Source: Owenia fusiformis (Eukaryota; Annelida; Polychaeta; Sabellida; Oweniidae). From it: DNA of 64,000 nucleotides. Below, in pieces: positions 1 through 34,784 of the stretch (the first letter of the stretch is position 1; the number at the start of each line of letters is the position of its first letter). The stretch lies in assembly GCA_903813345.2 (NCBI GenBank), contig CAIIXF020000010.1, forward strand, positions 17,617,181 through 17,681,180, read 5' to 3'. The translations under genes and the position numbers were made by a program. The notes under the pieces are model-generated. The model did not search any database. It was given only the letters and a program-made list of their open reading frames with translations, and had not been told where the DNA came from.

Positions 1-346
1 CTAGGCATTTTGGTGTCCAAATTTTAAAGCTAGATAGCCTTCGAGGTCCCTTTCTTTTATAGGCTTTCAGAATGTTAAGCTGTACTCAGTCTATATCTGG
101 TATTTTACACTTCAAAAAATCTTTTTTTCTCATTGACATAACATGGGACACCAAATTTAGCGATTTTTGAGCTTTCAAAACGCCATAACTTCCGAACCGG
201 TAGTCGGATTGAAATTTGGTTTGCAGATTCGGAATCCTGAGAAAATTCTACACTTGAGTCATAACTCATATATTGAATTCTGAGAATTTTTTGTGTTGAC
301 CTATTTTCTGGACGCCATATCTCAAAATCGGTAAGAGTAATCAAAA
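1..346. repeat. Family A repeat, truncated 3' part of a unit
   Basis: The window opens inside a family A unit. The stretch carries the conserved block starting GCCATAACTTCCGAACCGG and the block ending near TCGGTAAGAGTAATC, then joins the next unit at CTAGA (347). Short reading frames here recur only because the repeat recurs and show no domain. The 5' part of the unit lies outside the window. Confidence 0.8.
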
Positions 347-1641
347 CTAGATTGGTAAATTGAACAAAGTTCAATTTAAGACTCCAGATTGATTTACTTG
401 AGTAAAGAGCTGAGTAAGTAACTGAGTAGGAAGCTGAGTAAGTAGATGATTAAGTAATTGAGTAAGTAGCTGAGTAGGTAGCTGAGTAAGCAGCTGAGCA
501 GGTTGCTGAGTTAGTAGCTGAGTAGGTAGCTGAGTAAGTAGCTGAGTAGGTAGCTGAGTAGGTAGCTAAGTAGGTAGCCAAATAGGTAGGTAAGTAGGAA
601 TTTTTGACTGGAAGTCGGATTGAAATTTGGTTTGCAGATTTGGATTCCTGAGAAAATTCTACCCTTAATTCATAACTCATATGTTAAATTTGGAGAATTT
701 TTTATTTTGACCTACTTTTCGGACACGCCATAACTTTGGAACCGGAAGTCGGATCGAAATTTGGTTTGCAGATTCGGATTCCTGAGAAAATTCTACTCTT
801 AATTCATAACTCATGTTAAATTTGGAGAATTTTTTATTTTGACCTACGTTTCGGACACCATATCTCAAAAGTGGGTCAAAATACTCTCTGACGGCAAAAG
901 GCTAACACTATTAGCACACTCTTTGCTACCTGTATACAAAATTTTGAAGCAAATCCTAAAAGTGTAGTGCCAGAATCGCAAAAATAAGGAAAAACTATGA
1001 ATTTGACCTAGATTTTGACCTAGGCATTTTGGTGTCCAAATATTGAAACTAGGTAGCTTTTGAGGTCCCCTTCTTTTATAGGAATTCATTATCTTAAGCT
1101 GTACTCAATCTATAACTCGTATTTTTCACTTCAAAAAATCTTTTTTCCTTGACTTTCTATCAGGATAACATCAGATCGATTTTTCTCGAAATTTCAAAAC
1201 GCCATAACTTTCAAACGGGAAGTCGGATCGAAATTTGGTTTGCAGATTCAGATTCCTGAGGAAATTCTACCCTTATTTCATAGCTCATATGTTAAATTTG
1301 GAGAACTTTTTTAGTTTGACCTACTTTCCGGACGCCATATATCAAAATCGCTAAGAGTAATCAAAAAACGGATGGCACACTCTCGATTTGTTTTTTTCTA
1401 AGCTACATGATGAAAAAAAGATGAAGGAGTAACGACAATAAGCAACGAAGATAATTGACAGAATGTTGATTTGACCTTAATTTGACCTACTTCTTGACCT
1501 TTAACCTAGATACAAATTTGACCTAATTTCCCAGAAACTAGGTTGATGGGCTATGTTAGCCATGTAAGTTGGTTAAAGTAAGTTCTCCTAGTTACTGAGA
1601 AAATGTGTACGGAAAGAAAGAAAGAAAAATAATAATAATAA
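347..1641 (+). repeat. Family A unit 1, first of a near-identical 1295-bp pair
   Basis: The unit starts CTAGATTGG, followed by the hairpin TTGAAC-aaa-GTTCAA and then ACTCCAGATTG. A 12-bp GTAGCTGAGTAA-type minisatellite follows (about 405-590), then monomers with the CATAACTTTGGAACCGG-type block. The unit ends with GAGAAAATGTG and a (GAAA)n(AAT)n junction. It looks essentially identical to 1642-2933 by eye, so the duplication is recent or an assembly repeat. Confidence 0.85.
405..590. repeat. 12-bp minisatellite (GTAGCTGAGTAA/GTAGCTGAGTAG)
   Basis: Tandem 12-bp units with alternating last base. Sister arrays lie at about 1700-1886, 2995-3190 and 4715-4930, in the first four units only. Later units carry a GGATAG-type array at the same place. 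Antisense frames through it give Tyr/Leu/Ser or Thr/Ala/Tyr/Ser repeats that are simple translations of the array. Confidence 0.9.
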
Positions 1642-2933
1642 CTAGATTGGTAAATTGAACAAAGTTCAATTTAAGACTCCAGATTGATTTACTTGAGTAA
1701 AGAGCTGAGTAAGTAACTGAGTAGGAAGCTGAGTAAGTAGATGATTAAGTAATTGAGTAAGTAGCTGAGTAGGTAGCTGAGTAAGCAGCTGAGCAGGTTG
1801 CTGAGTTAGTAGCTGAGTAGGTAGCTGAGTAAGTAGCTGAGTAGGTAGCTGAGTAGGTAGCTAAGTAGGTAGCCAAATAGGTAGGTAAGTAGGAATTTTT
1901 GACTGGAAGTCGGATTGAAATTTGGTTTGCAGATTTGGATTCCTGAGAAAATTCTACCCTTAATTCATAACTCATATGTTAAATTTGGAGAATTTTTTAT
2001 TTTGACCTACTTTTCGGACACGCCATAACTTTGGAACCGGAAGTCGGATCGAAATTTGGTTTGCAGATTCGGATTCCTGAGAAAATTCTACTCTTAATTC
2101 ATAACTCATGTTAAATTTGGAGAATTTTTTATTTTGACCTACGTTTCGGACACCATATCTCAAAAGTGGGTCAAAATACTCTCTGACGGCAAAAGGCTAA
2201 CACTATTAGCACACTCTTTGCTACCTGTATACAAAATTTTGAAGCAAATCCTAAAAGTGTAGTGCCAGAATCGCAAAAATAAGGAAAAACTATGAATTTG
2301 ACCTAGATTTTGACCTAGGCATTTTGGTGTCCAAATATTGAAACTAGGTAGCTTTTGAGGTCCCCTTCTTTTATAGGAATTCATTATCTTAAGCTGTACT
2401 CAATCTATAACTCGTATTTTTCACTTCAAAAAATCTTTTTTCCTTGACTTTCTATCAGGATAACATCAGATCGATTTTTCTCGAAATTTCAAAACGCCAT
2501 AACTTTCAAACGGGAAGTCGGATCGAAATTTGGTTTGCAGATTCAGATTCCTGAGGAAATTCTACCCTTATTTCATAGCTCATATGTTAAATTTGGAGAA
2601 CTTTTTTAGTTTGACCTACTTTCCGGACGCCATATATCAAAATCGCTAAGAGTAATCAAAAAACGGATGGCACACTCTCGATTTGTTTTTTTCTAAGCTA
2701 CATGATGAAAAAAAGATGAAGGAGTAACGACAATAAGCAACGAAGATAATTGACAGAATGTTGATTTGACCTTAATTTGACCTACTTCTTGACCTTTAAC
2801 CTAGATACAAATTTGACCTAATTTCCCAGAAACTAGGTTGATGGGCTATGTTAGCCATGTAAGTTGGTTAAAGTAAGTTCTCCTAGTTACTGAGAAAATG
2901 TGTACGGAAAGAAAGAAAGAAAAATAATAATAA
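1642..2933 (+). repeat. Family A unit 2, near-identical copy of unit 1
   Basis: Landmarks sit 1295 bp after those of unit 1: minisatellite, AACCGGAAGT monomer, GTGGGTCAAAATACTC block and the TTTGACCTAATTTCC end. The main difference I see is one AAT triplet fewer at the junction, making it 1292 bp. Orientation is assigned by the array's CTAGA end. Confidence 0.85.
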
Positions 2934-4652
2934 CTAGATTGGTAAATTGAACAAAGTTCAATTTAAGACTCCAGATTGATTTACTTGAGTAAAGAGCTGA
3001 GTAGGAAGCTGAGTACGTAGATGATTAAGTAATTGAGTAAGTAGCTGAGTAGGTAGCTGAGTAAGTAGCTGAGTAGGTAGCTGAGTAAGTAGCTGAGTAG
3101 GTAGCTGAGTAAGTAGCTGAGTAGGTAGCTGAGAAGTAGGTAGCTAAGTAGGTAGCCAAGTAGGTAAGTAGGTAGGTAGGTAAGTAGGAATTGTTGAAAG
3201 TATATTTGATGGATCTGCATTGTGGATACTGGCAAATGTGAATTTTAAAATGGCATAGAATCTAAACTGGGAGTCAGATTGAAAGTTGATTTGCAGATTT
3301 GGATTCCTTAGAAAATTCTACCCTTAATTCATAACTCATAAGTTAAATTTGGAGAACTTTTTATTTTGACCTACTTTTCGGACACCATATCTCAAAAGTG
3401 GGTCAAAATACTTTCTGACGGCAAAAGGCTAACACTATTAGCACACTCTTTGTTACCTGTATACAAAATTTTGAAGCAAATTATTAAAGTGTAATGTCAG
3501 AATCGCAAAATTAAGGAAAAGCTATGAATTTGACCTAGATTTTGACCTTGGCATTTTGGTGTCCACATTTTGAAGCTAGGTAGCCGTTTGAGGTCCCCTT
3601 CTTTTATAGACTTTCATTATGTTGAGCTGTACTCAGTCTATACCTGGTATTTTACACTTCAAAAAGATATTTTTCCCTATTGATATAACATGGGGCACCA
3701 AATTTAGCAATTTTTGAGCTTTCAAAATGCCATAACTTCCGACCTGAAAGTCGAATCAAAATTTGGTTTGCAAATTCGGATTCCTGAGAAAATTCTACCC
3801 TTATTTCATAGCTCATATGTTAAATTTGGAGAATTTTTTATTTTGACCTACTTTTCAGACACCATATCTCAAAAGTGGGTCAAAATACTTCCTGACGGCA
3901 AAAGGCTAACATTATTAGCACACTCTTTGCTACCTGTATACAAAATTAAGAAGCAAATAATTTAACTGTAGTGTCAGAATCGTAAAAATTAGGAAAAACT
4001 ATCAATTTGACCTAGATTTTGACCTTGGGATTTTGGTGTCCAAATTTTGAAGCTAGGTAGCTTTTGGGTACCCTTCTTTTATAGGAATTCATTATGTTAA
4101 GCTGCACTCTGTCTATATCTCATATTTTACAATTAAATAAAGTCTTTTTTCCCATTGACTTAACATGGGGCACCAAATTTAGCAATTTTTGAGCTTTCAA
4201 ACCGCCATAACTTCCAAACGGGAAGTCGGATCGAAATTTGGTTTGCAGATTCGGATTCCTGAGAAAATTCTACCCTTATTTCATAGCTCATATGCTAAAT
4301 TTGGAGAACTTTTTTAGTTTGACCTACTTTCCGGACGCCATATCTCAAAATCGCTAAGAGTAATTAAAAAACGGATGGCACACTCTCGATTTGTTTTTTT
4401 CTAAGCTACATGTTGAAAAAAAGATGAAGGAGTTACCACAAGTAACAACGAAGATAATTGACATAATGTTGATTTGACCTAAATTTGACCTTGTTCTTGA
4501 CCTTTGACCTAGATAAAAATTTGACCTAATTTCCCAGAAACTAGGTTGATGGGCTATGTTAGCCATGTAAGTAGGTTAAAGTAAGTTCTTCTAGTTGCTG
4601 AGAAAAAGTGTTCGGAAAGAAAGAAAGAAAGAAAGAAAGAAAGAATGAATAA
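2934..4652 (+). repeat. Family A unit 3
   Basis: It starts with the same CTAGATTGG and TTGAAC/GTTCAA hairpin. The 12-bp GTAGCTGAGTAG/GTAGCTGAGTAA minisatellite (about 2995-3190) is followed by diverged copies of the conserved blocks. The TGACCTTTGACCT direct repeat sits at 4498-4510. The unit ends in (GAAA)n. It is more diverged than units 1 and 2, so the array is of mixed age. Confidence 0.75.
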
Positions 4653-7008
4653 CTAGATTTGTGAAATTGAACAAGTTCAATTTAAGACTCCAGATTTATT
4701 TGACCTAGATAGATCAGTAAAGAGCTGAGTAAGTAACTGAGTAATTAGCTGAGTAAGTACCTTAGTAGTAGTTGAGTAAGTAGCTGAGTAAGTAACTGAG
4801 TAAAAAGCTGAGTAGGTAGCTGAGTAAGTAGCTGAGTAAGTACCTGAGTTAGTAGCTGAGTAAGTTGCTAAGTAAGTACCCCTAAGTAATTGAGTAAGAA
4901 GTCAAATAAGTAGCTGAGTAGGTAGAGAGGTAAAGTAGGGTATGCAGTATATTTGATCAATCTGCATCGTGAATACTGGCAAGTGCGAATTTCAAACTTC
5001 AAAATGGCGTAGAATCTTAACCGGGGGTCGGATTGCAATTTTAATTTCAGATCCGGATTCCTGAGGAAATTCTACCCCTAATTCATAACTCATACTTTAA
5101 AATTGGAGAACTTTTTATTTTGACCTACATTTCAGACACCATATCTCAAAAGTGGGTCAAAAAACTTATTGACGGCAAAATGTTAACATTATTAGCACAC
5201 TCTTCACTACAAGTATACAAAATTTCGGAGAATATCATTGAAGTGTAGTGTCAGAATCGCAAAATAATAAAAAAAAACTATGAATTTGACCTAGATTTTG
5301 AACTAGGTATTTTGGTGTCCAAACTTTGAAGGAAAGTAGCTTTTGAGGTCCCCTTCTTCTATGGGCTTTCATTATGTTTAGCTTTACTCATTCTATATCT
5401 CGTATTTTTACACTTCAAAAAATTATTCGGTCCCATTGATTTAACATGGGGCACCAAACTTAGCGATTTTTGAGATTTCAAAACGCCATTACTTCCGCAC
5501 GGGAAGTCGGATCAAAATTTGGTTTGCAGATTCGGATTCCTGATAAAATTCTACCCCTTATTTATAACTCATACGTTAAATTTGAAGATTTTTTTATTTT
5601 GACCTACTTTTGGGACACCATATCTCAAAAGTGGGTCAAAATACTTTTTGACGGCAAAAGGCTAACACTATTAGCATACTCTTGGCTACATGTATACACA
5701 ATTTCGAAGAATATAATTAAAGTGTAGTGTCAGAATCGCAAAAATAAGGAAAAACTTTGAATTTGACCTAGATTTTGACCTAGGCATTTGTGTGTCCAGA
5801 TTTTTAAGCTAGATGGCTTTTGAGGTCCCCTTCTTTTAAAAGCTTCCATTATATTTAGCTGAACTCAGTCTATATTTCGTATTTTTCACTTCAAAAAATC
5901 TTTTTTTCCCATTGACTTAACATGGGCACCAAATTTAGCGATTTTTGAGCTTTCAAAACGCCATAACTTCCAAACCAAAAGTCGGATTGAAATTTGGTTT
6001 GCAGATTCGGATTCCTGGGATAATTCTACCCTTAATTCATAACTCATACGTTGAATTTGTAGAACTTTTTATTTTGACCTACTTTTCGGACACGCCATAG
6101 CTTCCGAACCGGAAGTCTGATCGAAATTTGGTTTGCAGATCCGGATTCCTGACAAAATCCTACCCCTAATTCATAACTCATACGTTAAATTTGAAGAACT
6201 TTATATTTTGACCTATATTTGGGACACCATATCTCAAAAGTGGGTCAAAATACTTTCTGACGGCAAAAGGCTAACACTATTAGCACACTCTTGGCTACAT
6301 GTATACACAATTTTGAAGAATATAATTAAAGTGTAGTGTCAGAATCGCAAAAATAAGGAAAAACTTTGAATTTGACCTAGATTTTGACCTAGGCATTTTG
6401 GTGTCCAAATTTTTAAGAAAAGAAGGTTTTGAGGTCCCTTTCTTTTATGGGCTTCCATTATGTTTAGCTGTACTTAGTCTATATCTCATATTTTACACTT
6501 CAAAAAAATCTTTTTTTCCATTGAATTAACATGGGGACACAAAATTTAGCGATTTTTGAGCTTTCAAAACGATATAACTTCCGAACCGGAAGTCGGATCG
6601 AAATTTGGTTTTCAGATTCGGAATCCTGAGAAAATTTCCTACAAGACCAGTAGCCTGGACATTTAATTGGGAGAACTATTTTTTGGACCTCGTTTTCGGA
6701 CACTGATATCTCGAAATCGGTTTGAGATATCAAAAAACTAAATCGACCTGTTTTCCCCTACTTTTTTATGAGGAACACAATGAAAAAAACCCGGATTGAA
6801 AATATTGAAGGACGACCGAGAAAATTGAAAAAAGTGACAAAATACTGGATTTGACCTAGTTCTTGACCTTTGACCTAGATAAAAATTTGACCTAATTTCC
6901 CATCATCCCAGATACATTCCCTAGGAAATCATGTAAGCAGCTTAAAGTAAGCTCTTCTAGTTGGTGAGAAATCTGGGAAGGAGGAAGATTCTGAAAGAAT
7001 AATAATAA
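4653..7008 (+). repeat. Family A unit 4 (expanded)
   Basis: Starts CTAGATTTG and a TTGAAC/GTTCAA hairpin with a degenerate GCTGAGTAAGTA minisatellite (about 4715-4930). The central block is present about three times (near 5000, 5480 and 5960), so this unit was lengthened by internal duplication. The TGACCTTTGACCT block lies near 6864, and the unit ends in AATAATAA. Confidence 0.7.
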
Positions 7009-7074
7009 CTAGATTTTGGAAATTGAACGAAGTTCAATTTCAGACTCCAGATCTAGACTTTTTTAAGCCCAGTC

Positions 7075-7315
7075 ATCTAAAATAAGCCGAGTCATCCAGA
7101 ATAAGCTGAGTCATCCAGAATAAGATGGATGGATAAAATAAGAAGGTAGGATAGGATAGAATGGGAAGGAACGATAGGATAGAATAATAAAGAAGGATAG
7201 GATAGAACAGAATAGGAAGAAAGGATATGATAGGAGAGGATAGGAAGGAAAGGATACGAAGGAAGGATAGATAGGAAGGATAGGATAGGATCAGATAGGA
7301 AGGATGGATGGATGA
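7075..7315. repeat. GAGTCATCCA repeats plus GGATAG/GGAAGGA minisatellite
   Basis: About three copies of a 20-bp GAGTCATCCAGAATAAG unit lead into a degenerate purine-rich array of GGATAG and GGAAGGA. The same pair recurs at about 12265-12510, 13660-13918, 15105-15330, 16505-16758, 18400-18662 and 20480-20720. One unit of the 20-mer holds TGAGTCA, the AP-1 core (7107-7113). Serine/leucine/proline-rich antisense frames are artefacts. Confidence 0.85.
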
Positions 7316-8411
7316 ATTTTTCAATATTTTCTTCCCTACTCTTGACTTTCTATCAGGATACCATCAGATCGATTTTCCGAAATTTCAAAACGCCATAACT
7401 TCAGAACCGGAAGTCAGATCTAAATTTGATTTAAAGATTCGGATTCCTGACAAAATTCTACCCCTAATTCATAACTTTTGACCTACTTTTTGGACACGCC
7501 ATAACTTCTGAACCGGAAGTCGGATCGAAATTTGGTTTGCAGATTCGGATTTCTGAGAAAATTCTACCCTTAATTCATAACTCAAACGTTAAATTTGGAG
7601 AACTTTTTATTTTGACCTACTTTTCGGACACCATATCTCAAAAGTGGGTCAAAATACTTTCTGACGGCAAAGGCTAACGCTATTAGCACACTCTTGGCTA
7701 CATGTATACATAATTTCGAAGAATATAATTAAAATGTAGTGTCAGAATCGCAAAAATAAGAAAAAACTTTGAATTTGACCTAGATTTTGACCTAGGCATT
7801 TTGGTGTCCAATTTTTGAATCTATGTGGCTTTTGAGGTCCCCTTCTTTTAAAGGCTTTGATTATATGAAGCTGAACTCAGTCTATATTTCGTATTTTTCA
7901 CTTCAAAAAAATCTTTTCTCCCATTGACTTAACATGGGCACCAAATTTAGCGATTTTTGAGCTTTCAAAACGCCAGAACTTCCGAACCGGAAGTCTGATC
8001 CAAATTTGGTTTGCATATTCAGATTTCTGACAAAATTCTACCCCTAATTCATAACTCATACCCTGAATTTGGAGAACTTTTGTTTTGACCTACTTTCTGG
8101 ACGCCATATTTCAATATCGGTAAGGGTAATTAAAAGAAAACAGGGACACTTATGAAAGGGCTTTTTCTAAGCTACATGATGAAAAAAAGACGAAGACGTT
8201 TCAATAAATAACGACGAAGATAATTGATAGAATGTTGAAAATGTAAGATTTGACCTAGTTCTTGACCTTTGACCTAGATAAAAATTTGACCCAATTTCCG
8301 AGGAACTAGATACTGGACATAAATTGACTGAATAATGATCTTTATTGGAAACCTTATGGTTATCGAGAAAACTGGGAGAGAATAATAATAAAGAATACTG
8401 GCAAAAACAAT

Positions 8412-8561
8412 AGACTCCAGATTTACATCTGGAGTCTAATAATAATAATAATAATAATAAAGAAAACTGACGAAAGCAATAGACTCCAGATTTTATCTGG
8501 AGTCTAATAATAATAAGAAAACTGGCAAAAGCAATAGACTCCAGATTTTCATCTGGAGTCT
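8412..8561 (+). repeat. Triple terminal hairpin, AGACTCCAGAT stem
   Basis: Three copies of a roughly 60-bp end module: an ACTGGCAAAAGCAAT-like lead, an 11-bp perfect inverted repeat AGACTCCAGAT / ATCTGGAGTCT with a 3-4 base loop, and an AATAAT tail. Further copies lie at 10908-10933, 10964-10989, 13526-13551, 13576-13602, 21867-21891 and 21916-21941. The same AGACTCCAGAT word occurs about 35 bp inside the 5' end of most family A units. Confidence 0.85.
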
Positions 8562-8569
8562 AATAATAA

Positions 8570-9647
8570 CTAGACATTTAAAATCGCCACGGGGGCGATT
8601 TCGTAGAATGCCGTTCCTCGCCGCAGCAGCAAATTCGGTGCACAATTGACCTTTTTCAAGGTCACGCAGAGGTCGAATTCCAAAACCGAAAGCATATTTA
8701 GAATCAGGGACATCCATACTTCATACTTGCAAAGAATTGGAATGAAAATCACCCAAATTATAAACCCTAGAGATATGTTAAATGGGAAGAGTAAGGCATG
8801 CAAAAAATAACTACAGTGGCTCCTTGAACAGGTAAAACAAGAAATAAGTTTTACGTCATTTTACAGTGAAGGTCAAAGGTCAAGGTCAAAATGTTGACCT
8901 AATTTACTCTAGTTTAGTACAGTGTAATACAATGGTACCAATTTCGAATCAATTGGAGCAATTTTAGCAATTTAACCTTTTTGACCTTTTCAAGGTCACC
9001 CGGAGGTCAAATTCCAAAACCACAAGCATATTTAGAATCAGGGACATCCATACTTCATACTTGCAAAGAATTGGAATGAAAATCCTAGTTTTCAACTTTG
9101 AGGTCATTTGAAGGTCAATGTCAAAGGTCAAGGTCAAAATGGTGACCTAATTTACTCTATCCGAGTACAGTGTAATACAATGGTACCAATTTGGAATCAA
9201 TTTGAGCGATTTTGATTTTTGAACTTGTTGACCTTTTCAAGGTCACTCAGAGGTCGGATTCCAAAACCGAAAGCATATTTGGAATCAGGGGCTTCTATTC
9301 TTTATATCTGCTCAGAATTGGGATCGGATACACAGTTTTCAAATTTTGCCCCACTGGGGTGCCCCATTTTTCAAATTGGGGCACCCAATTTTAAAACCCG
9401 GAATATATGTGAAATGGCAATTGTGAGGGATGGCATATGCAAATTTTGGGTAAAAAATAAAAATGGTTACTCCTTGTACGTGCAAAAATGTAAAAATTTG
9501 CGATTTGACCTTGGCTAATTAGGGAGGGGCTAATTAAAAAAATGAAGGCATTTCCCTGTAGCCCAGGAACATGTCAAGGTTGATGGTATATGCTAATTAG
9601 CTGACATGTCGGTGTGTGCGGAGAAATCTTGCGTGGAATAATAATAA
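8570..9647 (+). repeat. Family B unit 1
   Basis: Starts CTAGACATTTAAAATCGCC with hairpin AAATCGCC-acgg-GGGCGATTT, then TAGAATGCCG. The body is dense in AGGTCA/TGACCT: TGACCTTTTTCAAGGTCA (everted, 6-bp spacing) near 8648, and AGGTCAAAGGTCA plus an adjoining AGGTCA at 8870-8888. A 10-bp hairpin GGGTGCCCCA / TGGGGCACCC lies near 9356-9385. The unit ends TTGCGTGGAATAATAATAA. Confidence 0.8.
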
Positions 9648-10881
9648 CTAGACATTTAAAATCGCCACGGGGGCGATTTCGTAGAATGCCGTTCCTCGCC
9701 GCAGCAGCAAATTCGGTGCACAATTGACCTTTTTCAAGGTCACGCAGAGGTCGAATTCCAAAACCGAAAGCATATTTGATATCATATTTTGCCATATTTT
9801 TGAAATTTTGGCACTCAATTTAAAAACCCGTACCCTTATCCTCCCAGACGCGCTTTAAAGCGCTGTCGCGTGCCCCCTATATAGATTAGGAAAGAATTGG
9901 AATGAAAATGAAAATCACCCAAATTATAAACCCTAGAGATATGTTAAATGGGAAGAGTAAGGCATGCAAAAAATAACTACAGTGGCTCCTTGAACAGGTA
10001 AAACAAGAAATAAGTTTTACGTCATTTTACGGTGAAGGTCAAAGGTCAAGGTCAAAATGTTGACCTAATTTACTCTAGTTTAGTACAGTGTAATACAATG
10101 GTACCAATTTCGAATCAATTGGAGCAATTTTAGCAATTTAACCTTTTTGACCTTTTCAAGGTCACCCGGAGGTCAAATTCCAAAACCACAAGCATATTTA
10201 GAATCAGGGACATCCATACTTCATACTTGCAAAGAATTGGAATGAAAATCCTAGTTTTCAACTTTGAGGTCATTTGAAGGTCAATGTCAAAGGTCAAGGT
10301 CAAAATGGTGACCTAATTTGCTCTATACGAGTACAGTGTAATACAATGGTACCAATTTGGAATCAATTTGAGCGATTTTGATTTTTGAACTTGTTGACCT
10401 TTTCAAGGTCACTCAGAGGTCGGATTCCAAAACCGAAAGCATATTTGGAATCAGGGGCTTCTATTCTTTATATCTGCTCAGAATTGGGATCGGATACACA
10501 GTTTTCAAATTTTGCCCCACTGGGGTGCCCCATTTTTCAAATTTGGGGCACCCAATTTTAAAACCCGGAATATATGTGAAATGGCAATTGTGAGGGATGG
10601 CATATGCAAATTTTGGGTAAAAAATAAAAATGGTTACTCCTTGTACGTGCAAAAATGTAAAAATTTGCGATTTGACCTTGGCTAATTAGGGAGGGGCTAA
10701 TTAAAAAAATGAAGGCATTTCCCTGTAGCCCAGGAACATGTCAAGGTTGATGGTATATGCTAATTAGCTGACATGTCGGTGTGTGCGGAGAAATCTTGCG
10801 TGGAATAATAATAATAATAATAATAAGAAGAAGAAAAAGGCGAAAACTATAGAATGCCGTTTCTTCGAAACCGGCATTCTA
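9648..10881 (+). repeat. Family B unit 2 with its own terminal hairpin
   Basis: Nearly identical to 8570-9647, except that a segment near 9777-9893 is replaced by one holding the perfect palindrome GCGCTTTAAAGCGC. After (AATAAT)n it ends in a hairpin at 10850-10881 whose arms contain TAGAATGCCG / CGGCATTCTA. The same TAGAATGCCG lies near the 5' end of family B. This is the design of family A with a different word. Confidence 0.8.
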
Positions 10882-12212
10882 ATAAGAAGAAAACTGGCAA
10901 AAGCAATAGACTCCAGATTTTCATCTGGAGTCTAATAATAAGAAGAAAACTGGCAAAAGCAATAGACTCCAGATTTTCATCTGGAGTCTAAAAAACGGTG
11001 ACACTAATGAAAGGGCTGTTTTTAAGCTATGTGATGAAAAAAAGATAAGGGAATAATGACGAATAGTGACCAAGATAATTGACAGAATGTTAGAAATGTA
11101 AGATTTGACCCAGTTCTTGACCTTGGCTTTTCAGTGTCCAAATTTTATATTAAAGGAGCTTCGGAGGGCCTCGTCTATTGTAGACTTTCATTTATTTTAT
11201 TTGTATCCAGTCTTTATCTCGTATATTTACAATTCATAATTTTCTTGAGCTCCATAGATTTAACAGAGGGATATCATCATATCGACTTTTTTAAAATTCG
11301 AAACATCATAACTTCCGAACCGGAAATCAAATCGAAATTTGGTTTACAGATTTAGATTCCTGGGAAAATTCTACCTTTATTTCATAACTCATACATTAAA
11401 TTTGGAGATTTTTTTATTTTGACCTACTTTTCGGACGCCATATCTCAAAAGTGGGTCGGAATACTTTCTGACGGCAAAAGGCTTGCACTATTAGCACACT
11501 CTTTTCTACCTGTATACACAATTTTGAAGCAAATCATCAAAGTGTAGTGTCAGAATCGCAAAAATAAGGAAAAACTATGAATTTGACCTAGATTTTGACC
11601 TAGGCATTTTGGTGTCCAAATATTGAAACTAAGTAGCTTTTGAGGTCCCCTTCTTTTATAGGAATTCATTATCTTAAGCTGCACTCAGTCTATATCTCGT
11701 ATTTTACACTTCAAAAAAGTCTTTTTTCCCATTGACTTAACATGGGGCACCAAATTTAGCGATTTTGAGCTTTCAAAACGCCATAACTTCCGAACGGGAA
11801 GTCGGATCGGAATTTCGTTTGCAGATTTGGATTCCTGAGAAAATTCTACCCTTATTTCATAGCTCATATGTTAAATTTGGAGAACTTTCTTAGTTTGACC
11901 TACTTTCTGGACGCCATATCTCAAAATTTGTAAGAGTAATCAAAAAACGGATGGCACACTCTCCATTTGTTTTTTTCTTAGCTACATGTTAAAAAAAAGA
12001 TGAAGGAGTTACGTCAAACAACAACGAAGATAATTGACAGAATGTTGATTTGAACTAAATTTGACCTAGTTCTTTACCTTTGACCTAGATAAAAAATTGA
12101 CCTAATTTCCCAGAAACTAGGTCGATGGGCTATGTTAGCCATGTAAATAGGTTAAAGTAAGTTCTTCTAGTTGCTGAGAAAAAGTGTTCGGAAAGAAAGA
12201 AAGAAAGAATAA
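10882..12212 (+). repeat. Two AGACTCCAGAT hairpins, then a family A unit lacking its 5' end
   Basis: Two family A end hairpins (10908-10933, 10964-10989) are followed by a family A body that starts inside the TGAAAGGGCTGTTTTTAAGC block, so the CTAGA end is missing. It carries the usual blocks (GCACACTCTTTTCTACC near 11490, ACTTCCGAACGGGAAGT near 11787) and ends in (GAAA)n before CTAGA at 12213. No credible gene. Confidence 0.7.
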
Positions 12213-13613
12213 CTAGACTTGGGAAATTGAACGAAGTTCAATTTCAGACTCCAGATCTAGACTTTTTTTTAGCCGAGTCATCCAGAATAAGCCGAGTCAT
12301 CCAAAATAAGCTGAGTCATCCAGAAAAAGATGGATGGATGGATGGATGAAAAAGGAAGGAAGGATAGGCTAGAATAGGAAGGGACGATAGGATAGAATAA
12401 GAAAGAATGATAGAATAGAATAGGAAGAAGGAATAGAATAGGAAGGATAGGAAGGAGAGGATACGAAGGAAAGGTAGATAAGAAGGATACGATAGGATCA
12501 CAAAGGAAAGATGGATGCATTTTTCAATATTTTCTTCTCTACTCTTGACTTTCTATCAGGATACCATCAGATCGATTTTTCTCGAAATTTCAAAACGCCA
12601 TAACTTTCGAACCGGAAGTCTGATCGAAATTTGGTTTGCAGAGTCGGATTCCTGAGAAAATTCTGACTTTAATTCATAACTCATATGTTAAATTTTGAGA
12701 ACTTTTTATTTTGACCTACTTTTCGGACACCATATCTCAAAAGTGGGTCGAAATACTTTCTGACGGCAAAAGGCTAACACTATTAGCACACTCTTGGCTA
12801 CATGTATACAAAATTTCGAAGAATATAATTAATCTGTAGTGTCAGAATCGCAAAAATAAGGGAAAACTTTGAATTTGACCTAGATTTTGACCTAGGCATT
12901 TTGGTGTCCAAATTGTTATGAAAAGAGGATTTTGAGGTCCCTTTCTTTTATGGGCTTCCATTATGTTTAGCTGTGCTTAGTCTATATCTCGTACTTTACA
13001 CTTCAAAAAAATATTTTTTCCCATTGAATTAACATGGGGCACCAAATTTTGCGATTTTTGAATTTTCAAAACGCCATAACTTCTGCACCGGAAGTGAGAT
13101 CGAAATTTTGTTTTCAGATTCGGAATCCTGAAAAAATTTCCTTTAAAACTGATATCCTGGACATTGGATTCGAAGATTTTTTTTTTGGACCTCGTTTTCG
13201 GACACTGATATCTCGAAATCGGTTTGAGATACCAAAAAACTAAATCGACCCTAGATTTTCTACTTTTTTATGAGGAACACAATGAAAAAAAACCGGATCA
13301 AAAATATTGAAGGACGACCGAGAAAATCGAAAAAAATGACAAAGTACTGGATTTGACCTAGTTCTTGACCTTTGACCTAGATAAAAATTTGACCCAATTT
13401 CCCACCAACTAGATACTGAACCTAAATGAACTGTATAATGGTCTTTACTGGATACCTTATAGTTATTGAAAAAACTCTTAAAGAAAAATAATAATAAGAA
13501 GAAGAAGAATACTGGCAAAAACAATAGACTCCAGATTGACATCTGGAGTCTAATAAGAAAACTGGCAAAAGCAATAGACTCCAGATTTTCAATCTGGAGT
13601 CTAATAATAATAA
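12213..13613 (+). repeat. Family A unit with two terminal hairpins
   Basis: Starts CTAGACTTGG with the TTGAAC/GTTCAA hairpin and ACTCCAGATCTAGAC. GAGTCATCCA repeats and a GGATAG/GGAA minisatellite span about 12265-12510. It ends with hairpins at 13526-13551 and 13576-13602. A 133-codon antisense frame at 13240-13641 runs across the 3' end and into the next unit, with no recognisable domain. Confidence 0.8.
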
Positions 13614-15039
13614 CTAGATTTTGGAAATTGAACGAGTTCAATTTCAGACTCCAGATCTAGACTTTTTTTAGCCGAGTCATCCAGAATAAGCCAAGTCATC
13701 CAAAATAAGCTAAGTCATCCAGAAAAAGATGGATGGATGAACGGATGAAAAAGGAAGGAAAGATAGGATAGAATAGGAAGGAACTATAGGATAGAATAGG
13801 AAAGAATGATATAATAGAATAGGAAGAAGGGATAGAATAGGAAGGATAGGAAGGAGAGGATACGAAGCAAGGGTAGATAGGAAGGATAGGATAGGATAGG
13901 ATCAGAAAGGAAGGATGGATGCATTTTTCAATATTTTCTTCTCTACTCTTGACTTTCTATGAGGATACCATCAGATCGATTTTTCTTGAAATTTCAAAAC
14001 GTCATAACTTCCGAACCGGAAGTCGGATCGAAATTTGATTTGCAGATTCGAATTCCTGACAAAATTCTACCCCTAATTCATAACTCATACGTTAAATTTG
14101 GAGATTTTTTATTTTGACCTACTTTTCGGACACGCCATAACTTCCGAACCGGAAGTCGGATTGAAATTTGGTTTGAAGATCCGGATTCCTGACAAAATTC
14201 TACCCTTAATTCATAACTCATATATTAAATTTTGAGAACTTTTTATTTTGACCTACTTTTCGGACACCATATCTCAAAAGTGGATCAAAATACTTTCTGA
14301 CGGCAAAAGGCTAACACTATTAGCATATTCTTGGCTACATGTATACACAATTTCGAAGAATATAATTAAAGTGTAGTGTCAGAATCGAAAAAATAAGGAA
14401 AACCTATGAATTTGACCTAGATTTTGACCTAGGCATTTCGGTGTCCAAATTTTGAAGCTAGATGGCTTTTGAGGCCTCCTTCTTTTAAAGGCTTTGATTA
14501 TATGAAGCTGAACTCAGTCTTTATTCCGTATTTTTCACTTCAAAAAAATATTTTTTCCCATTGACTTAACATGGGCACCAAATTTAGCGATTTTTGAGTT
14601 TTCAAAACGCCATAACTTCCGAACTGGAAGTCGGATCGAAATTTCGTTTTCAGATTTGGAATCCTGAGAAAATTTCCTATAAGACTAATATCCTGGACAT
14701 TTGATTCGGAGAACTTTTTTTTGGACCTCGTTTTCGGACAATGATATCTCGAAATCGGTTTGAGATATCAAAAAACTAAATCGACCTTAGGTTTCCTACT
14801 TTTTTATAAGGAACACAATGAAAAAAAACCGGATCAAAAATATTGAAGGATGACCGAGAAAATCGAAAAAAGTGACAAAGTACTGGATTTGACCTAGTTC
14901 TTGACCTTTGACCTAGATAAAAATTTGACCCAATTTCCAGAGAACTAGATACTGAACCTAAATTGACCAAATGATTGACTTTACTGAAGACCTTATGGTT
15001 ATTGAGAAAACTGGGTTAGAATAATAAGAAGAAGAATAA
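13614..15039 (+). repeat. Family A unit, about 1.4 kb
   Basis: CTAGATTTTGG start, TTGAAC/GTTCAA hairpin, GAGTCATCCA repeats, GGATAG-rich minisatellite (13660-13918), two ACTTCCGAACCGGAAGT monomers, and the TGACCTTTGACCT block near 14900. It ends at (AATAAGAAG) just before the next CTAGA. The terminal hairpin is missing, so the junction lies just inside the normal 3' end. Confidence 0.8.
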
Positions 15040-16449
15040 CTAGACTTGGGAAATTGAACGAAGTTCAATTTCAGACTCCAGATCCAGACTTTTTTAAGCC
15101 CAGTCATCTAAAATAAGCCGAGTCATCCAGAATAAGCTGAGTCATCCAGAATAAGATGGATGGATAAAACAGGAAGGTAGGATAGGATAGAATGGGAAGG
15201 AACGATAGGATAGAATAAGAAAGAAGGATGGGGTAGAACAGAATAGGAAGAAAGGATATGATAGGAGAGGATAGGAAGGAAAGGATACGAAGGAAAGATA
15301 GGATAGGATAGGATCAGATAGGAAGGATGGATGAATTTTTCAATATTTTCTTCTCTACTCTTGACTTTCTATCAGGATACCATCAGATCGATTTTCCGAA
15401 ATTTCGAAACGCCATAACTTCCGAACCGGAAGTCGGATCTAAATTTGATTTAAAGATTCGGATTCCTGACAAAATTCTACCCCTAATTCATAACTCATAC
15501 ATTAAATTTGGCAAATTTTTATTTTGACCTACTTTTTGGACACGCCATAACTTCAGAACCGGAAGTCGGATCGAAATTTGGTTTGCAGATTCGGATTTCT
15601 GAGAAAATTCTATTCTTAATTCATAACTCAAACGTTAAATTTGGAGAACTTTTTATTTTGACCTACTTTTCGGACACCATATCTCAAAAGTGGGTCAAAA
15701 TACTTTTTGACGGCAAAAGGCTAACACTATTAGCACACTCTTGGCTACATGTATACACAATTTCGAAGAATATAATTAAAGTGTAGTGTCAGAATCGCAA
15801 AAATAAGAAAAAACTTTGAATTTGACCTAGATTTTGACCTAGGCATTTTGGTGTCCAAATTTTAAGGCTAGATGGCTTTTGAGGTCCCATTCTTTTAAAA
15901 GCTTTCATTATATTTAGCTGAACTTAGTCTATATTTCGCATTTTTCACTTCAAAAAATCTTTTTTCCCTTTGACTTAACATGGGCTCAAAATTTAGCGAT
16001 TTTTGAGTTTTCAAAACGCCATAACTTCAGAACCGGAAGTCTGATCTAAATTTCGTTTTCAGATTCGGAATCCTGAGAAAATTTTCTATAAGACTAATAT
16101 CCTGGACATTCGATTCGGAGAACTTTTTTTTGGACCTCGTTTTCGGACACTGATATCTCGAAATCGGTTTGAGATATCAAAAAACTAAATCGACCCTAGA
16201 TTTCCTACTTTTTTATAAGGAACACAATGAAAAAAACCCGGATCGAAAATATTGAAGGACAACCGAGAAAATCGAAAAAAGTGACAAAGTACTGGATTTG
16301 ACCTAGTTCTTGACCTTTGACCTAGATAAAAATTTGACCCAATTTCCGAGAAACTAGATCTAGGACCTAAATGGACCATATATAGGACTTGACTCTATAT
16401 CTTCTAGTTAACGAGAAAACTGGGAAAGAATAATAAAGAATAATAATAA
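15040..16449 (+). repeat. Family A unit, about 1.4 kb
   Basis: Same order of blocks as 13614-15039, starting CTAGACTTGGG. GAGTCATCCA repeats and the GGATAG minisatellite span about 15105-15330. Two monomers with AACCGGAAGT follow (15421 and 15555). The DR1-like TGACCTTTGACCT block is near 16310. It ends in AATAAAGAATAATAATAA. Confidence 0.8.
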
Positions 16450-17857
16450 CTAGACTTTGGAAATTGAACGAAGTTCAATTTCAGACTCCAGATCTAGCCT
16501 TTTTTAAGCCCAGTCATCTAAAATAAGCCGAGTCATCCAGAATAAGCTGAGTCATCCAGAATAAGATGGATGGATAAAATAGGAAAGTAGGATAGGATAG
16601 AATGAGAAGGAACGATAGGATAGAATAAGAAAGAAGGATAGGATAGAACAGAATAGGAAGAAAGGATATGATAGGAGAGGATAGGAAGGATAGGAAGGAA
16701 AGGATACGAAGGAAGGATAGATAGGAAGGATAGGATCAGATAGGAAGGATGGATGGATGAATTTTTCTAATATTTTCTTCTCTACTCTTGACTTTCTATC
16801 AGGATACCATCAGATCAATTTTCCGAAATTTCAAAACGCCATAACTTCCGAACCGGAAGTCGGATCGAAATTTGATTTAAAGATTCAGATTCCTGACAAA
16901 ATTCTACCCCTATTTCATAACTCATACGTTAAATTTGGCGAATTTTTATTTTGACCTACTTTTTGGATACGCCATAACTTCGGAACCGGAAGTCAGATCG
17001 AAATTTGGTTTGCAGATTCAGATTTTTGAGAAAATTCTATTCTTAATTCATAACTCAAACGTTAAATTTCGAGAACTTTTTATTTTGACCTACTTTTCGG
17101 ACACCATATCTCAAAAGTGGTTCAAAATAATTTCTGACGGCAAAAGGCTAACGCTATTAGCATACTCTTGGCTACATGTATACACAATTTCGAAGAATAA
17201 AATTAAAGTGTAGTGTCAGAATCGCAAAAATAAGAAAAAACTTTGAATTTGACCTAGATTTTGACCTAGGCATTTTGGTGTCCAAATTTTGAAGCTATTT
17301 GGCTTTTGAGGTCCCCTTCTTTTAAAGGCTTTAATTATACGAAGCTGAACTCAGTCTACATTTCGTATTCTTCACTTCAAAAAAATCTTTTTTCCCATTG
17401 ACTTAACATGGGCACCAAATTTAGCGATTTTTGAGCTTTCAAAATGCCATAACTTCCGAACAGGAAGTCGGATCGAAATTTGGTTTGCAGATTCAGATTC
17501 CTGACAAAATTCTACCCCTAATTCATAACTCATACCCTGAATTTGGAGAACTTTTGTTTTGACCTACTTTCTGGACGCCATATTTCAAAATCGGTAAGAG
17601 TAATTAAAAAAGAACAGTGGCACTTATGAAAGGGCTTTCTCTAAGCTACATGATGAAAAAAAGACGAAGACGTTTCGATAAATAACGACAAAGATAATTG
17701 ATAGAATGTTGAAAATGTAAGATTTGACCTAGTTCTTGACCTTTGACCTAGATAAAAAATTGACCCAATTTCCAAGAAACTAGATACTGGACTTAAATTG
17801 ACCATATACAGGACTTGACTCAATGTCTTCTAGTTAAGGAGAAAACGTGGGTAGAAG
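16450..17857 (+). repeat. Family A unit, about 1.4 kb
   Basis: Starts CTAGACTTTGG. The GGATAG-type minisatellite spans about 16505-16758, followed by two AACCGGAAGT monomers and the GTGTCCAAATTTTGAAGC block. It ends at the GAGAAAACGTGGGTAGAAG junction. Closest by eye to 15040-16449. Confidence 0.75.
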
Positions 17858-18347
17858 AATAACAATTTTTTTACTTTTCTTGACATTCTATAAGGGTACC
17901 ATCAGATCGATTTTTCTCGAACTTTCAAAACGTCATAACTCCTGAACCGGAAGTCGGATTTCAATTCGGTTTTCAGATTCGGAATCCTGAGAAAATTTTC
18001 TATAAGACTGATATCCTCGATATTGGATTCGGAGATCTTTTTTTTGGACCTCGTTTTCGGACACTGATATCTCGAAATCGGTTTGAGATATCAAAAAACT
18101 AAATCGACTCTAGATTTCCTACTTTTTTATGAGGAACACGATGAAAAAAACCCGGATCAAAAATATTGAAGGACGACCGAGAAAATCGAAAAAAGTGACA
18201 AAGTACTGGATTTGACCTAGTTCTTGACCTTTGACCTAGATAAAAATTTGACCCAATTTCCGAGGAACTAGATACTGGACATAAATTGACTGAATAATGA
18301 TCTTTATTGGAAGCCTTATGGTTATCGAGAAAACTGGGAAAGAATAA
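17858..18347 (+). repeat. Truncated family A fragment
   Basis: It begins inside the CTTGACATTCTATAAGGGTACC block without a CTAGA end or minisatellite, then runs through one CTGAACCGGAAGT monomer, the TTTTTTATGAGGAACAC block and TGACCTTTGACCT to GAGAAAACTGGGAAAGAATAA. It is a 5'-truncated unit of about 490 bp. Confidence 0.7.
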
Positions 18348-20420
18348 CTAGATTTTGGAAATTGAACGAAGTTCAATTTCAGACTACAGATCTAGACTTT
18401 TTTTAGCCGAGTCATCCAGAATAAGCCGAGTCATCCAGAATAAGCTGAGTCATCTAGAAAGAGATGGATAAATAAAAAGGGAAGGTAGGATAGGATAGAA
18501 TAGGAAAGAACGATAGGATAGAATAAGAAAGAAGGATAGGATAGGATAGGATAGAATAGAATAGGAAGAAAGGATAGGATAGGATAGGAAGGATAGGAAG
18601 GAAAAGATATGAAGAAAGGATAGATAGGAAGGATAGGATAGGATGAGATAGGAAGGATGGATGAATTTTTCAATATTTTCTTCTCTACTCTTGACTTTCT
18701 ATCAGGATACCATTAGATCGATTTTTCTCGAAATTTCAAAACGCTATAACTTGGTTTGCAGATTCGGATTCCTGACAAAATTCTACCCCTAATTCATAAC
18801 ACATACGTTAAATTTGGAGATTTTTTATTTTGACCTACTTTTCGGACACGCCATAACTTCCGAACCGGAAGTCGGATCGAAATTTGGTTTGCAGATCCGG
18901 ATTCCTGACCGAATTCTACCCCTAATTCATAACTCATACGTTAAATTTGGAGATTTTTTATTTTGACCTACTTTTCGGACACGCCATAACTTCCGAACCG
19001 GAAGTCGGATCGAAATTTGGTTTGCAGATCCGGATTCCTGACCGAATTCTACCCCTAATTCATAACTCATACGTTAAATTTGGAGATTTTTTATTTTGAC
19101 CTACTTTTCGGACACGCCATAACTTCCGAACCGGAAGTTGGATCGAAATTTGGTTTGCAGTTCCGGATTCCTGACAAAATTCTACCCCTAATTCATAACT
19201 CATACGTTAAATTTGGAGATTTTTTATTTTGACCTACTTTTCTGACATGCCATAACTTCTGAACCGGAAGTCGGATCGAAATTTGGTTTGCAGATCCGGA
19301 TTCCTGAGAAAATTCTATACCTAATTCATAACTCATACGTTAAATTTGGAGATTTTTTATTTTGATCTACTTTTCGGACATGCCATAACTTCCGAACCGG
19401 AAGTCGGATCGAAATTTGATTTGCAGATTCGGATTCCTGACAAAATTCTACCCCTAATTCATAACTCATACGTTAAATTTGGCGAATTTTTATTTTGACC
19501 TACTTTTCGGACACGCGATAACTTCGGAACCGGAAGTCGAATTGAAATTTGGTTTGCAGATTCGGATTTCTGACAAAATTCTACCCCTAATTCATAACTC
19601 ATATGTTAAATTTGGAGAACTTTTTATTTTGACCTACTTTTCGGACACCATATCTCAAAAATGGGTCAAAATACTTTCTGACGGCAAAAGGCTAACACTA
19701 TAAGCGTACTCTTGGCTACATGTATACAAAATTTCGAAGAATATAATTAATCTGTAGTGTCAGAATCGCAAAAATAAGGAAAAACTTTGAATTTGACCTA
19801 GATTTCGACCTAGGAATTTTGGTGTCCAAATTCTGAAGCTAGATGGCTTTTGAGGTCTCCTTCTTTTAAAGGCTTTGATTATATGAAGCTGAACTCAGTC
19901 TTTATTCCGTATTTTTCACTTCAAAAAAATATTTTTTCCCATTGACTTAACATGGGCACCAAATTTAGCGATTTTTGAGTTTTCAAAACGCCATAACTTC
20001 CGAACTGGAAGTCGGATCGAAATTTCGTTTTCAGATTCGGAATTCTGAGAAAATTTCCTATAAGACTAATATCCTAAATATTCAATTCGGGGAAGTTTTT
20101 TTTGGACCTCGTTTTCGGACACTGATATCTCGAAATCGGTTTGAGATATCAAAAAACTAAATCGACCCTAGGTTTCTTACTTTTTTATAAGGAACACAAT
20201 GAAAAAAACCCGGATCAAAAATATTGAAGGATGACCGAGAAAATCGAAAAAAGTGACAAAGTACTGGATTTGACCTAGTTCTTGACCTTTGACCTAGATA
20301 AAAATTTGACCCAATTTCCAGAGAACTAGATACTGAACCTAAATTGACCAAATGATTGACTTTACTGAAGACCTTATGGTTATTGAGAAAACTGGGTTAG
20401 AATAATAAGAAGAAGAATAA
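18348..20420 (+). repeat. Family A unit expanded by a 133-bp tandem array
   Basis: CTAGATTTTGG start, TTGAAC/GTTCAA hairpin, GAGTCATCCA repeats and a GGATAG minisatellite (about 18400-18662). Tandem 133-bp monomers then stretch the unit to about 2.07 kb. The rest follows family A order and ends in AATAATAAGAAGAAG. Confidence 0.85.
18733..19640 (+). repeat. 133-bp tandem monomer array, about seven copies
   Basis: The block CCATAACTTCCGAACCGG recurs at 18851, 18984, 19117, 19250, 19383 and 19516, a constant 133-bp step. Each monomer holds ACTTCCG-aac-CGGAAGT (or a one-base variant), the word TTTGGTTTGCAGAT, an AATTCATAACTCATACG block and one TTTTGACCTACTTTT. Single or double copies are scattered through all other family A units. 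Confidence 0.9.
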
Positions 20421-21941
20421 CTAGATTTTGGAAATTGAACGAAGTTCAATTTCAGACTCCAGATCTAGACTTTTTTTAGCCGAGTCATCCAGAATAAGCC
20501 GAGTCATCCAGAATAAGCTGAGTCATCTAGAAAGAGATGGATAAATAAAATAGGAAGGTAGGATAGAATAGGAAAGAACGATAGGATAGAATAAGAAAGA
20601 AGGATAGGATAGAATAGAATAGGAAGAAAGGATAGGATAGGATAGGAAGGATAGGAAGGAAAAGATATGAAGGAAGGATAGATAGGAAGGATAGGGTAGG
20701 ATGAGATAGGAGGATGGATGAATTTTTCAATATTTTCTTCTCTACTCTTGACTTTCTATCAGGATACCATCAGATCGATTTTTCTCGAAATTTCAAAACG
20801 CTATCACTTCCGAACCGGAAGTCGGATCGAAATTTGGTTTGCAGATTCGGATTCCTGACAAAATTCTACCCCTAATTCATAACTCATACGTTAAATTTGG
20901 AGATTTTTTATTTTGACCTACTTTTCGGACACGCCATAACTTCCGAACCGGAAATCGGATCGAAATTTGGTTTGCAGATTCGGATTCCTGACAAAATTCT
21001 ACCCTTAATTCATAACTCATATATTCAATTTGGAGAACTTTTTATTTTGACCTACTTTTCGGACACCATATCTCAAAAGTGGGTCAAAATACTTTCTGAC
21101 GGCAAAAGGCTTACACTATTAGCATATTCTTGGCTACATGTATACTTAATTTCGAAGAATATAATTAAAGTGTAGTGTCAGAATCGAAAAAATAAGGAAA
21201 ACCTATGAATTTGACCTAGATTTTGACCTAGGCATTTCGGTGTCCAAATTGTGAAGCTAGATGGCTTTTGAGGTCCCCTTCTTTTAAAGGCTTTGATTAT
21301 ATGAAGCTGAACTCAGTCTATATTCCGTATTTTTCACTTCAAAAAAATATTTTTTCCCATTGACTTAACATGGGCACCAAATTTAGCGATTTTTGAGTTT
21401 TCAAAACGCCATAACTTCCGAACTGGAAGTCAGATCCAAATTTCGTTTTCAGATTCGGAATCCTGAGAAAATATCCTATAAGACTAATATCCTGGACATT
21501 TGATTCGGAGAACTTTTTTTTGGACCTCGTTTTCGGACCCTGATATCTCGAAATCGGTTTGAGATATCAAAAAACTAAATCGACCCTAGGTTTCCTACTT
21601 TTTTATAAGGAACACAATGAAAAAAACCCGGATCAAAAATATTGAAGGACGACCGAGAAAATCGAAAAAAGTGACAAAGTACTGGATTTGACCTAGTTCT
21701 TGACCTTTGACCTAGATAAAAATTTGACCCAATTTCCGAGGAACTAGATACTGAACCTAAATTGACCAAATGATTGACTTTACTGAAAACCTAATGGTTA
21801 TTGAGAAAACTGGTATAGAATAATAATAAGAAGAAGAAGAAGAATAAGAAAACTGACGAAAACAATAGACTCCAGATTTCATCTGGAGTCTAATAAGAAA
21901 ACTGGCAAAAGCAATAGACTCCAGATTTTCATCTGGAGTCT
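20421..21941 (+). repeat. Last family A unit, ending in two terminal hairpins
   Basis: CTAGATTTTGG start, GGATAG minisatellite (about 20480-20720), two monomers and the DR1-like block. It ends in two AGACTCCAGAT hairpins (21867-21891, 21916-21941). Non-repetitive sequence begins immediately after AATAAT, so the hairpin is the true 3' boundary of the whole array. Confidence 0.85.
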
Positions 21942-31025: not shown

Positions 31026-31498
31026 TTTATCTGCTGGTTGAACCACCCTAAAGTAGAACGATTTAGTATGTATGCAATAACCGGTAACCTTATTTTCTAG
31101 GTACAGAACTAAGAATGATATACATGTAATTGGATATTAACCATTTAAGTTGTTTAATAAAGTTTACTCCGAAAATAAGGATAATTACATGATTGCTATC
31201 AAATAAATCAAAATACTTCTTAACGGTTTTGTTTTCGGTCACCCTGTATGAAGTGTCATTAATTAGATGGCAGCCACTTAAAATCATCCATTCAACGCGT
31301 TCTAAATCAATCGTTATTCATCTTACCGGGCATATCCTAATTTTTTGAAAAACAACGTTCAAAAATATGATTCATGAAAGGACTGAAAAATTGCCATATT
31401 AGTATGGGAGCAAAGGTAATTCCGTGTCCTTTTTAGAGGCGAGCTAAGCGACATATATTTTTATGAACTATATGAGATACTTTCCAAGAAAAATGATG

Positions 31499-34470: not shown

Positions 34471-34784
34471 TTGAATTATAACAAACAGACTAAGTTGAAG
34501 TTAATGACAGTGTAAAATTACATGATTGTTAAAGTTATGATATTATAAATAGGTTTTACAACCACGAAATCATTACCACTTAACCCAAAATGTTTCATGG
34601 ACACTTGTCTCTAGAACAAAAACTAATTTTTTCTTAGTTATGCTTTCCAGGTTAGAAAAACAAAAAAATTATTTTAAAAATACTGATGCATTCAATTTGT
34701 TGTCATTATTGGGTTAAAATGCTTTTGACTTGAAGCTTCTAGCTCAATTTTGAAGGAAGTTGCATCAATTTTTGTAAGTGTGCG

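Follow-up and report, generated by a model that had tools for sequence, protein, structure and literature searches.

Helentrons and their non-autonomous derivatives, the HINEs, are the rolling-circle transposons closest to the repeats presented here. According to the portions of the four accounts (PMC4067079, PMC3627910, PMC5148889, PMC7492417) on which this text draws throughout, a 3' CTAG has been reported for a Phytophthora proto-Helentron (PMC4067079), tandem Helitron arrays in bat and silkworm have been attributed to missed termination (PMC4067079), and 5' and 3' asymmetric repeats have been guessed to recognise each other (PMC3627910). The locus described here lies in a 64,000-nucleotide stretch of the Owenia fusiformis genome (C10:17617181-17681180, part of a 498-Mb assembly), hereafter the window, and consists of repeat units of two families, A and B. 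Judged from the order of their ends, it is very probably a nest of HINEs, one inside another like Russian dolls, that would have grown by repeated insertion in the same orientation into a T-rich landing pad built into the elements.

Each family carries its own word, AGACTCCAGAT in family A (28 copies in the window, against 0.02 expected by shuffling) and TAGAATGCCG in family B (4 copies, 0.07 expected). A stricter scan of the window led to 13 CTAG ends with hairpin and word, 11 of family A and two of family B (starts in Table 1), and to ten word-hairpins (nine A, one B), which are grouped in stacks of two or three. An earlier note on this DNA, which had counted at least 13 units from two families with a word each and had placed the right edge exactly at the hairpin ending at 21941, is borne out on both points, the next 500 bp being free of array similarity, like the 500-bp flanks on both sides. 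The left edge is at C10:17614252, outside the window, giving a total span of 24,870 bp and, with two CTAG ends left of the window, 15 CTAG ends against ten hairpins. The same note had every unit start CTAGA straight after an AAT-type tract, and this holds for the 12 of 13 units preceded by AATAA, mostly the terminus of an AAT/AAG/GAAA-type tract, but not for the unit at 347, which follows AATCAAAA. It had also placed the word at both ends of each unit; word-hairpins do exist, yet they directly follow a unit in only four of 13 cases (7009, 9648, 12213, 20421). Positions 347-10989 form a composite enclosed by a single A unit (1-344 and 10990-12212): the right side, at 10990, continues GTCT/AAAAAACGG, the left side ends at 344 in AATCAAAA, and related units read AATCAAAAAACGG. 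When the two halves are joined, they align with other units through the junction at about 84%, in bodies that hold internal repeats (minisatellites, 133-bp and 479-bp repeats).

Read on the minus strand, an A element begins with TTATTAGACTCCAGAT, a loop and ATCTGGAGTCT, and finishes with ATCTGGAGTCT, a hairpin (GAAATTGAAC...GTTCAATTTC) and CAAAATCTAG. The complete order is 5'-TTATTA, word hairpin, about 20 nt, T-rich AAT/AAG-type tract, body, minisatellite, the word again, a second hairpin and CTAG-3'. Family B and a third family, C (word GGAGGCCCC), have the same architecture, and the predicted hairpins are backed by DNA folding (z -6.2, -4.2, -4.3 and -2.9). In all three families the minus-strand ends fit the Helitron2 layout, with the 5' asymmetric terminal inverted repeat (ATIR) within the 5' hairpin and the 3' ATIR immediately before the 3' hairpin. 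Taking the hairpin end as 5' and the CTAG end as 3' fits published Helitron2 elements; the earlier note had taken CTAGA as the 5' and the hairpin as the 3' end, and it is the minus-strand order that matches the published layout instead.

Evidence for nesting comes from parsing these ends as brackets, each CTAG end opening and each hairpin closing, labelled by word, across 24 loci with 61 hairpins. C hairpins were accepted with at most one mismatch, as a two-mismatch scan gave false matches inside B bodies. The topmost open CTAG end had the same word in 51 of the 61 hairpins and a different one in two; the other eight, among them an apparent A hairpin in the host flank of the C12 locus that was excluded from the tabulation of arrays, had no open end in range. 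Shuffling the labels over all loci gave a mean of 16.6 mismatches (sd 2.0, minimum 9), and shuffling within the seven loci with more than one word gave 10.0 ± 1.9, with none of 5000 shuffles as low as two in either case; these figures are not strict probabilities, because the loci are best-scoring matches and related to each other, which counts against the strength of the result. Both mismatches (window 10908 and L016) disappear if one missing hairpin is assumed. Examples are C(C(A(A)C)C)A(A(A)A)C) at L017, C(B(B)C) at C12, B(A(A(B(B)A)A)B( at L059 and A(A(B(B)A)A) at L060. In the 11 arrays with host DNA on both sides (four of them solo elements, and L060 with only 68 bp of host at the right) the outer ends share a word and closings never exceed openings; CTAG ends and hairpins are equal in number in eight of the 11 (four of these eight being the solos). 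Within each of the 24 loci the CTAG ends, 74 in total, point one way and none the other when hairpin sequences are required (a loose scan gave 15 reverse matches). The match of outer ends, and the inner order at L059 and L060, were stated before those sequences were read. The outcome was as expected at C12 (C...C), at L016 (B...B), in the A-outermost controls L010, L012 and L015 (A...A), and at L059 and L060, where two A ends stand outside the inner B. Some B ends and hairpin stacks of L016, L059 and L060 were known beforehand, and what was new at L016 was that B is outermost with host adjoining. The tandem array of units that had been suggested is not supported: the hairpins and CTAG ends pair as typed nested brackets.

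Of the 21 directly nested pairs, 17 have A within A or C within C and four combine different families; in every one the inner element occupies the AAT/AAG/GAAA-type tract that separates the outer body from the ~20 bases preceding the outer hairpin. The spacing of neighbouring hairpins is 23-43 bp in 30 of 30 cases, and solo elements carry the tract uninterrupted. When the outer C element of C12 was used as a query with its inner element removed, 39 of the best 40 scored loci (672 candidates) matched essentially end to end at 87-97%, and C12 itself over positions 1-157 only. A Helentron protein would copy HINEs by rolling circle in trans, and new copies would prefer T-rich DNA. Only one strand of the tract is T-rich, so a resident's pad could offer them such a site and would fix the orientation of entry. 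Each insertion would separate the 5' hairpin of the resident from its body, and repetition would leave hairpins stacked at one side, with CTAG-ended bodies lined up at the other. Since a newer copy would enter an older one next to its end hairpin, on the inner side, the order of ends would record the order of insertion. It is possible, if rather doubtful, that the tract is an evolved self-landing pad by which these Helentron families direct new insertions to their own resident copies and spare the host, the word-specific pairing of 5' hairpin and 3' repeat telling the enzyme which bracket closes which, so that nests stay mobile at any level.

Dispersed copies of the elements were also identified. 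A genome-wide search with the 122-bp A CTAG end (40 of 1630 candidates scored) placed 40 or more copies with 100% identity on seven large contigs (C1-C5, C7, C8), and 20 of these 40 were examined with their flanks, clustered and some other copies being left out. Host DNA adjoins the CTAG side in five of the 20 loci and array sequence in the other 15. Four are complete solo elements of 1.5-2.0 kb with host on both sides (L011, L013, L018, L019); at L001, with host at the CTAG side, no hairpin occurs within 3.4 kb. For target sites, the joined flanks of five insertions were searched (best 40 candidates listed) and six paralogous sites were read. Four paralogues of L019 hold the empty site CTATTACAATTAGATG, and the filled site reads CTATTACAA, CTAG...GTCT, AATAAGATG; the CTAG end is exact with host TT after it, any shared bases amount to TT at most (AA on this strand), and one A/T difference stays without explanation. 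Among the candidates listed, no empty site was found for L013 or for the window array. No clear target-site duplication was seen at the solo elements with paralogous empty sites, of which those of L019 are clear and those of L011 and L018 less so, and the T-rich (TT) insertion without duplication that marks Helentrons and HINEs was observed chiefly at L019.

An autonomous partner was located for family B. The Helentron at C12:19506443-19534029 (27.6 kb) shares both the CTAGA end (91/91 matches at 19534029) and the hairpin of B. Its 3164-aa open frame contains OTU (E-value = 5.8e-7), DUF6570, Rep (1.1e-28) and PIF1 (3.7e-19) domains (domain search on 3066 aa). Rep motif 2, FFYR-IEFQMRGSPHVH, shows the Helentron signature (GSPH and F/Y-x-R; PMC4067079). 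As to the C-terminal endonuclease domain of Helentrons, the frame shows a GDFNED motif and matches to PF14529 (E-value = 6.4e-4) and PF03372 (E-value = 0.001), both below the curated cut-off. Beyond the open frame follow the B body and then the B hairpin. The B unit at 9648-10881 joins two distant parts of this element, positions 1-246 (99.6% over 246 bp) and 25500-26397 (98.1% over 908 bp), and is a deletion derivative of it. Genome-wide, the PF14214 profile gave 58 Rep matches, many within open reading frames (ORFs) longer than 2000 aa. When A-like or word-sharing ends were sought around eight Rep loci, both ends were found at C6:5.17M only, with a word of its own (the C12 element came from its similarity to B). 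There, TTATTATGTCACCAC-loop-GTGGTGACATATTG lies upstream of the ORF and a matching repeat downstream, the layout of the A hairpin end; the downstream end was seen in two copies and the upstream hairpin in one, and a sister on C11 has no first arm. It is thus supported that the units are HINEs, that is, putative non-autonomous Helentrons of the Helitron2 kind, and for family A the class would follow from the shared architecture. The earlier note's assignment to Helentrons and HINEs has in this way gained a Rep-helicase partner for B and the dispersed solo copies that it had proposed to look for; the partner that it had proposed to seek for either family was found for B and not for A. The 3' CTAG taken alone agrees with the 3' CTRR of canonical Helitrons (Helitron1), but these begin with 5' TC and have no 5' hairpin, whereas the present elements carry a 5' hairpin and ATIRs. 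Replitron-type elements were considered as an alternative identity, as was a short or long interspersed nuclear element (SINE or LINE) with an AAT tail; the latter was dropped, since B ends sit on a Rep-helicase element.

At C1:21095499-21130675 (plus strand) a C CTAG end (21095499) and a C body end with C hairpin (21130465) flank an open Helentron frame. This is a possible autonomous C element that we do not claim as a partner, as separate short C copies may be involved. The small contigs C13, C505 and C515 hold several crowded Rep frames of ~2000-3400 aa, a hint of recent Helentron activity or of collapsed repeats.

Other explanations of the same ends were weighed. The nested HINEs could have the opposite polarity, beginning (5') at CTAGA and finishing (3') in the word hairpin. 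The C12 ORF starts on the CTAG side and reads towards the hairpin end, the common orientation and against Helitron2 polarity, and the minisatellite would then follow the CTAGA end as in the left flanks of oyster HINEs. Nevertheless this is quite unlikely, given that the Helitron2 definition (5' ATIR in the 5' hairpin, 3' ATIR before a second hairpin) suits the minus-strand reading only (PMC3627910), that TTATTA-hairpin-TTG upstream of the C6 ORF resembles the minus-strand A end (in one copy), that CTAG followed by T resembles a Helitron-type 3' end, and that ORFs reversed relative to the ends are published (PMC5148889, PMC3627910). Rolling-circle concatemers, in which termination is bypassed and one event lays several units with a terminator only at the end of the array, would account for head-to-tail units and for the surplus of CTAG ends in the window. 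They predict neither nests that combine different families under matching words (as in C(C(A(A)C)C) within L017, or at C12) nor equally numerous ends in most complete arrays, and are very improbable.

Satellite-like tandem growth of an old element through unequal exchange, its hairpins being local duplications, is as a general origin the most improbable of all in view of the dispersed solo elements and the nests that mix families. The identity of the adjoining units 347 and 1642, together with the minisatellites and the 133-bp and 479-bp repeats, does speak for exchange, which probably acts on some units. Whole composites may instead be the mobile unit, assembled elsewhere and moving together, a process compatible with nesting. 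Matches covering most of an A,A,B hairpin stack (84-95%) occur at 27 other loci of 40 scored, both of the two that were read holding A,A,B, and the B[A] junction of L016 was found in full length at 20 other loci of 40 scored (87-99%), the best match, on C27, having 99% identity and equal length. Hairpin subtypes and tract lengths vary among the loci read, though; the L059 junction has a best other match of 97% with a different length, the C12 junction has three other matches (82-92%), and none of the three junctions has a second exact copy. Movement of whole composites is therefore unlikely as the general origin, and repeated independent insertion is favoured from the differing subtypes and tract lengths, although some nests may move or duplicate.

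Several further observations weigh against nesting by repeated insertion into the pad. CTAG ends are in surplus in three of the 11 complete arrays (the window array with 15 against ten, L012 with four against three, L016 with three against two), so that the scheme also requires hairpin loss, truncation or duplication, and the 100% identity over 1292 bp of units 347 and 1642 is what a tandem duplication or an assembly duplicate would give. For the inner composite 347-10989 the site is a T-run of an A body and not a pad. Where the elements of a nest belong to one family, hairpins are allotted to bodies by the bracket rule, and at L002 and L017, for which the outer ends had also been predicted, the arrays extend past the range read. 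The L011 paralogue differs at the junction, the L018 empty site has 13 extra bp, and no autonomous A element was found in the stretches around the eight Rep loci. The exceptions suggest that bodies without hairpins would come from 5'-truncated insertions, hairpin loss and some later tandem duplication.

Table 1. Parts of the nest within the window
Feature	Position	Strand	Basis or remark
Inner composite, 10.6 kb	347..10989	-	5 A and 2 B CTAG ends, 5 A hairpins and 1 B hairpin; in T-run of A-unit body; bracket parse
Interrupted A unit, left part	1..344	-	Unit begins at C10:17616625, left of window
Interrupted A unit, right part (same unit as 1..344)	10990..12212	-	Alignment of joined halves
A unit	347..1641	-	CTAG 3' end at 347; 1292 bp 100% identical to 1642-2933
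A unit	1642..2933	-	CTAG-end scan
A unit	2934..4652	-	CTAG-end scan
A unit	4653..7008	-	CTAG-end scan
A unit with own 5' hairpin 8412-8437	7009..8437	-	CTAG-end scan and bracket parse
A 5' hairpin of outer element, in stack	8481..8505	-	Hairpin scan
A 5' hairpin of outer element, in stack	8536..8561	-	Hairpin scan
B unit without hairpin	8570..9647	-	First 130 bp of CTAG end 100% identical to C12 Helentron
B unit with 5' hairpin 10850-10881	9648..10881	-	Deletion derivative of C12 Helentron
A 5' hairpin of outer element	10908..10933	-	Hairpin scan, bracket parse
Outermost A 5' hairpin of inner composite	10964..10989	-	Hairpin scan, bracket parse
A unit with 5' hairpin 13526-13551	12213..13551	-	CTAG-end scan, bracket parse
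A 5' hairpin of outer element	13576..13602	-	Hairpin scan, bracket parse
A unit, no directly adjoining hairpin	13614..15039	-	CTAG-end scan
A unit, no directly adjoining hairpin	15040..16449	-	CTAG-end scan
A unit, no directly adjoining hairpin	16450..18347	-	CTAG-end scan
A unit, one mismatch in word, body with ~6.7 copies of 133-bp repeat	18348..20420	-	CTAG-end scan
A unit with 5' hairpin 21867-21891	20421..21891	-	CTAG-end scan, bracket parse
Outermost A 5' hairpin, right edge of nest	21916..21941	-	DNA fold z -6.2

Elsewhere in the window, a 120-bp tandem repeat at 55074-55498 has ~77% similarity with the satellite-like array in the C6:5.17M Helentron and is a putative remnant of another HINE/Helentron family. 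A large foldback at 31420-36209, with 564-nt arms that are 92% complementary, 3.7 kb apart and each containing 173-bp repeats, is possibly a transposon. Two ORFs were judged by eye, one of 371 aa at 23459-24574 (minus strand) resembling a seven-helix receptor and one of 216 aa at 47961-48611 (plus strand) resembling a glycoside hydrolase.

In the literature searched, outside which most subscription journals lie, no description was found either of nests with typed ends or of a landing pad adjoining the 5' hairpin. Nested arrays of this kind can be read as a record of insertions, offering a method of relative dating from typed brackets, and they point to a route from HINEs to satellite-like arrays without satellite amplification; the published guess of a mutual recognition between the asymmetric repeats of the two ends (PMC3627910) also becomes directly testable. 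The HINE, DINE-1 and Helentron elements of PMC4067079 share with the present ones the asymmetric sub-terminal repeats, hairpins, T-rich target without target-site duplication, internal microsatellite, and descent by deletion from a Rep-helicase element with the Helentron-type GSPH motif; the Owenia elements differ in the CTAG 3' end, the C12 ORF reversed relative to the ends and the copies nested in a pad adjoining the 5' hairpin. Helitron2 (PMC3627910) is similar in its 5' ATIR forming the 5' hairpin and its 3' ATIR immediately upstream of the 3' hairpin, but the ends described here finish in CTAG, and the known passages of the Helitron2 account contain no nesting rule. The satellite-like central repeats, T-rich targets and lack of target-site duplication of Cg_HINE from the Pacific oyster (PMC7492417) are also found here, whereas nests are not described in the known sections of that paper. 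Finally, the FoHeli Helitrons of Fusarium (PMC5148889) have reversed ORFs, a nested copy and short 5' ends in duplicate, for which self-insertion is the explanation given; some of them have several 5' ends and one 3' end, in contrast to the many 3' ends and the one recurrent spot of the Owenia nests.

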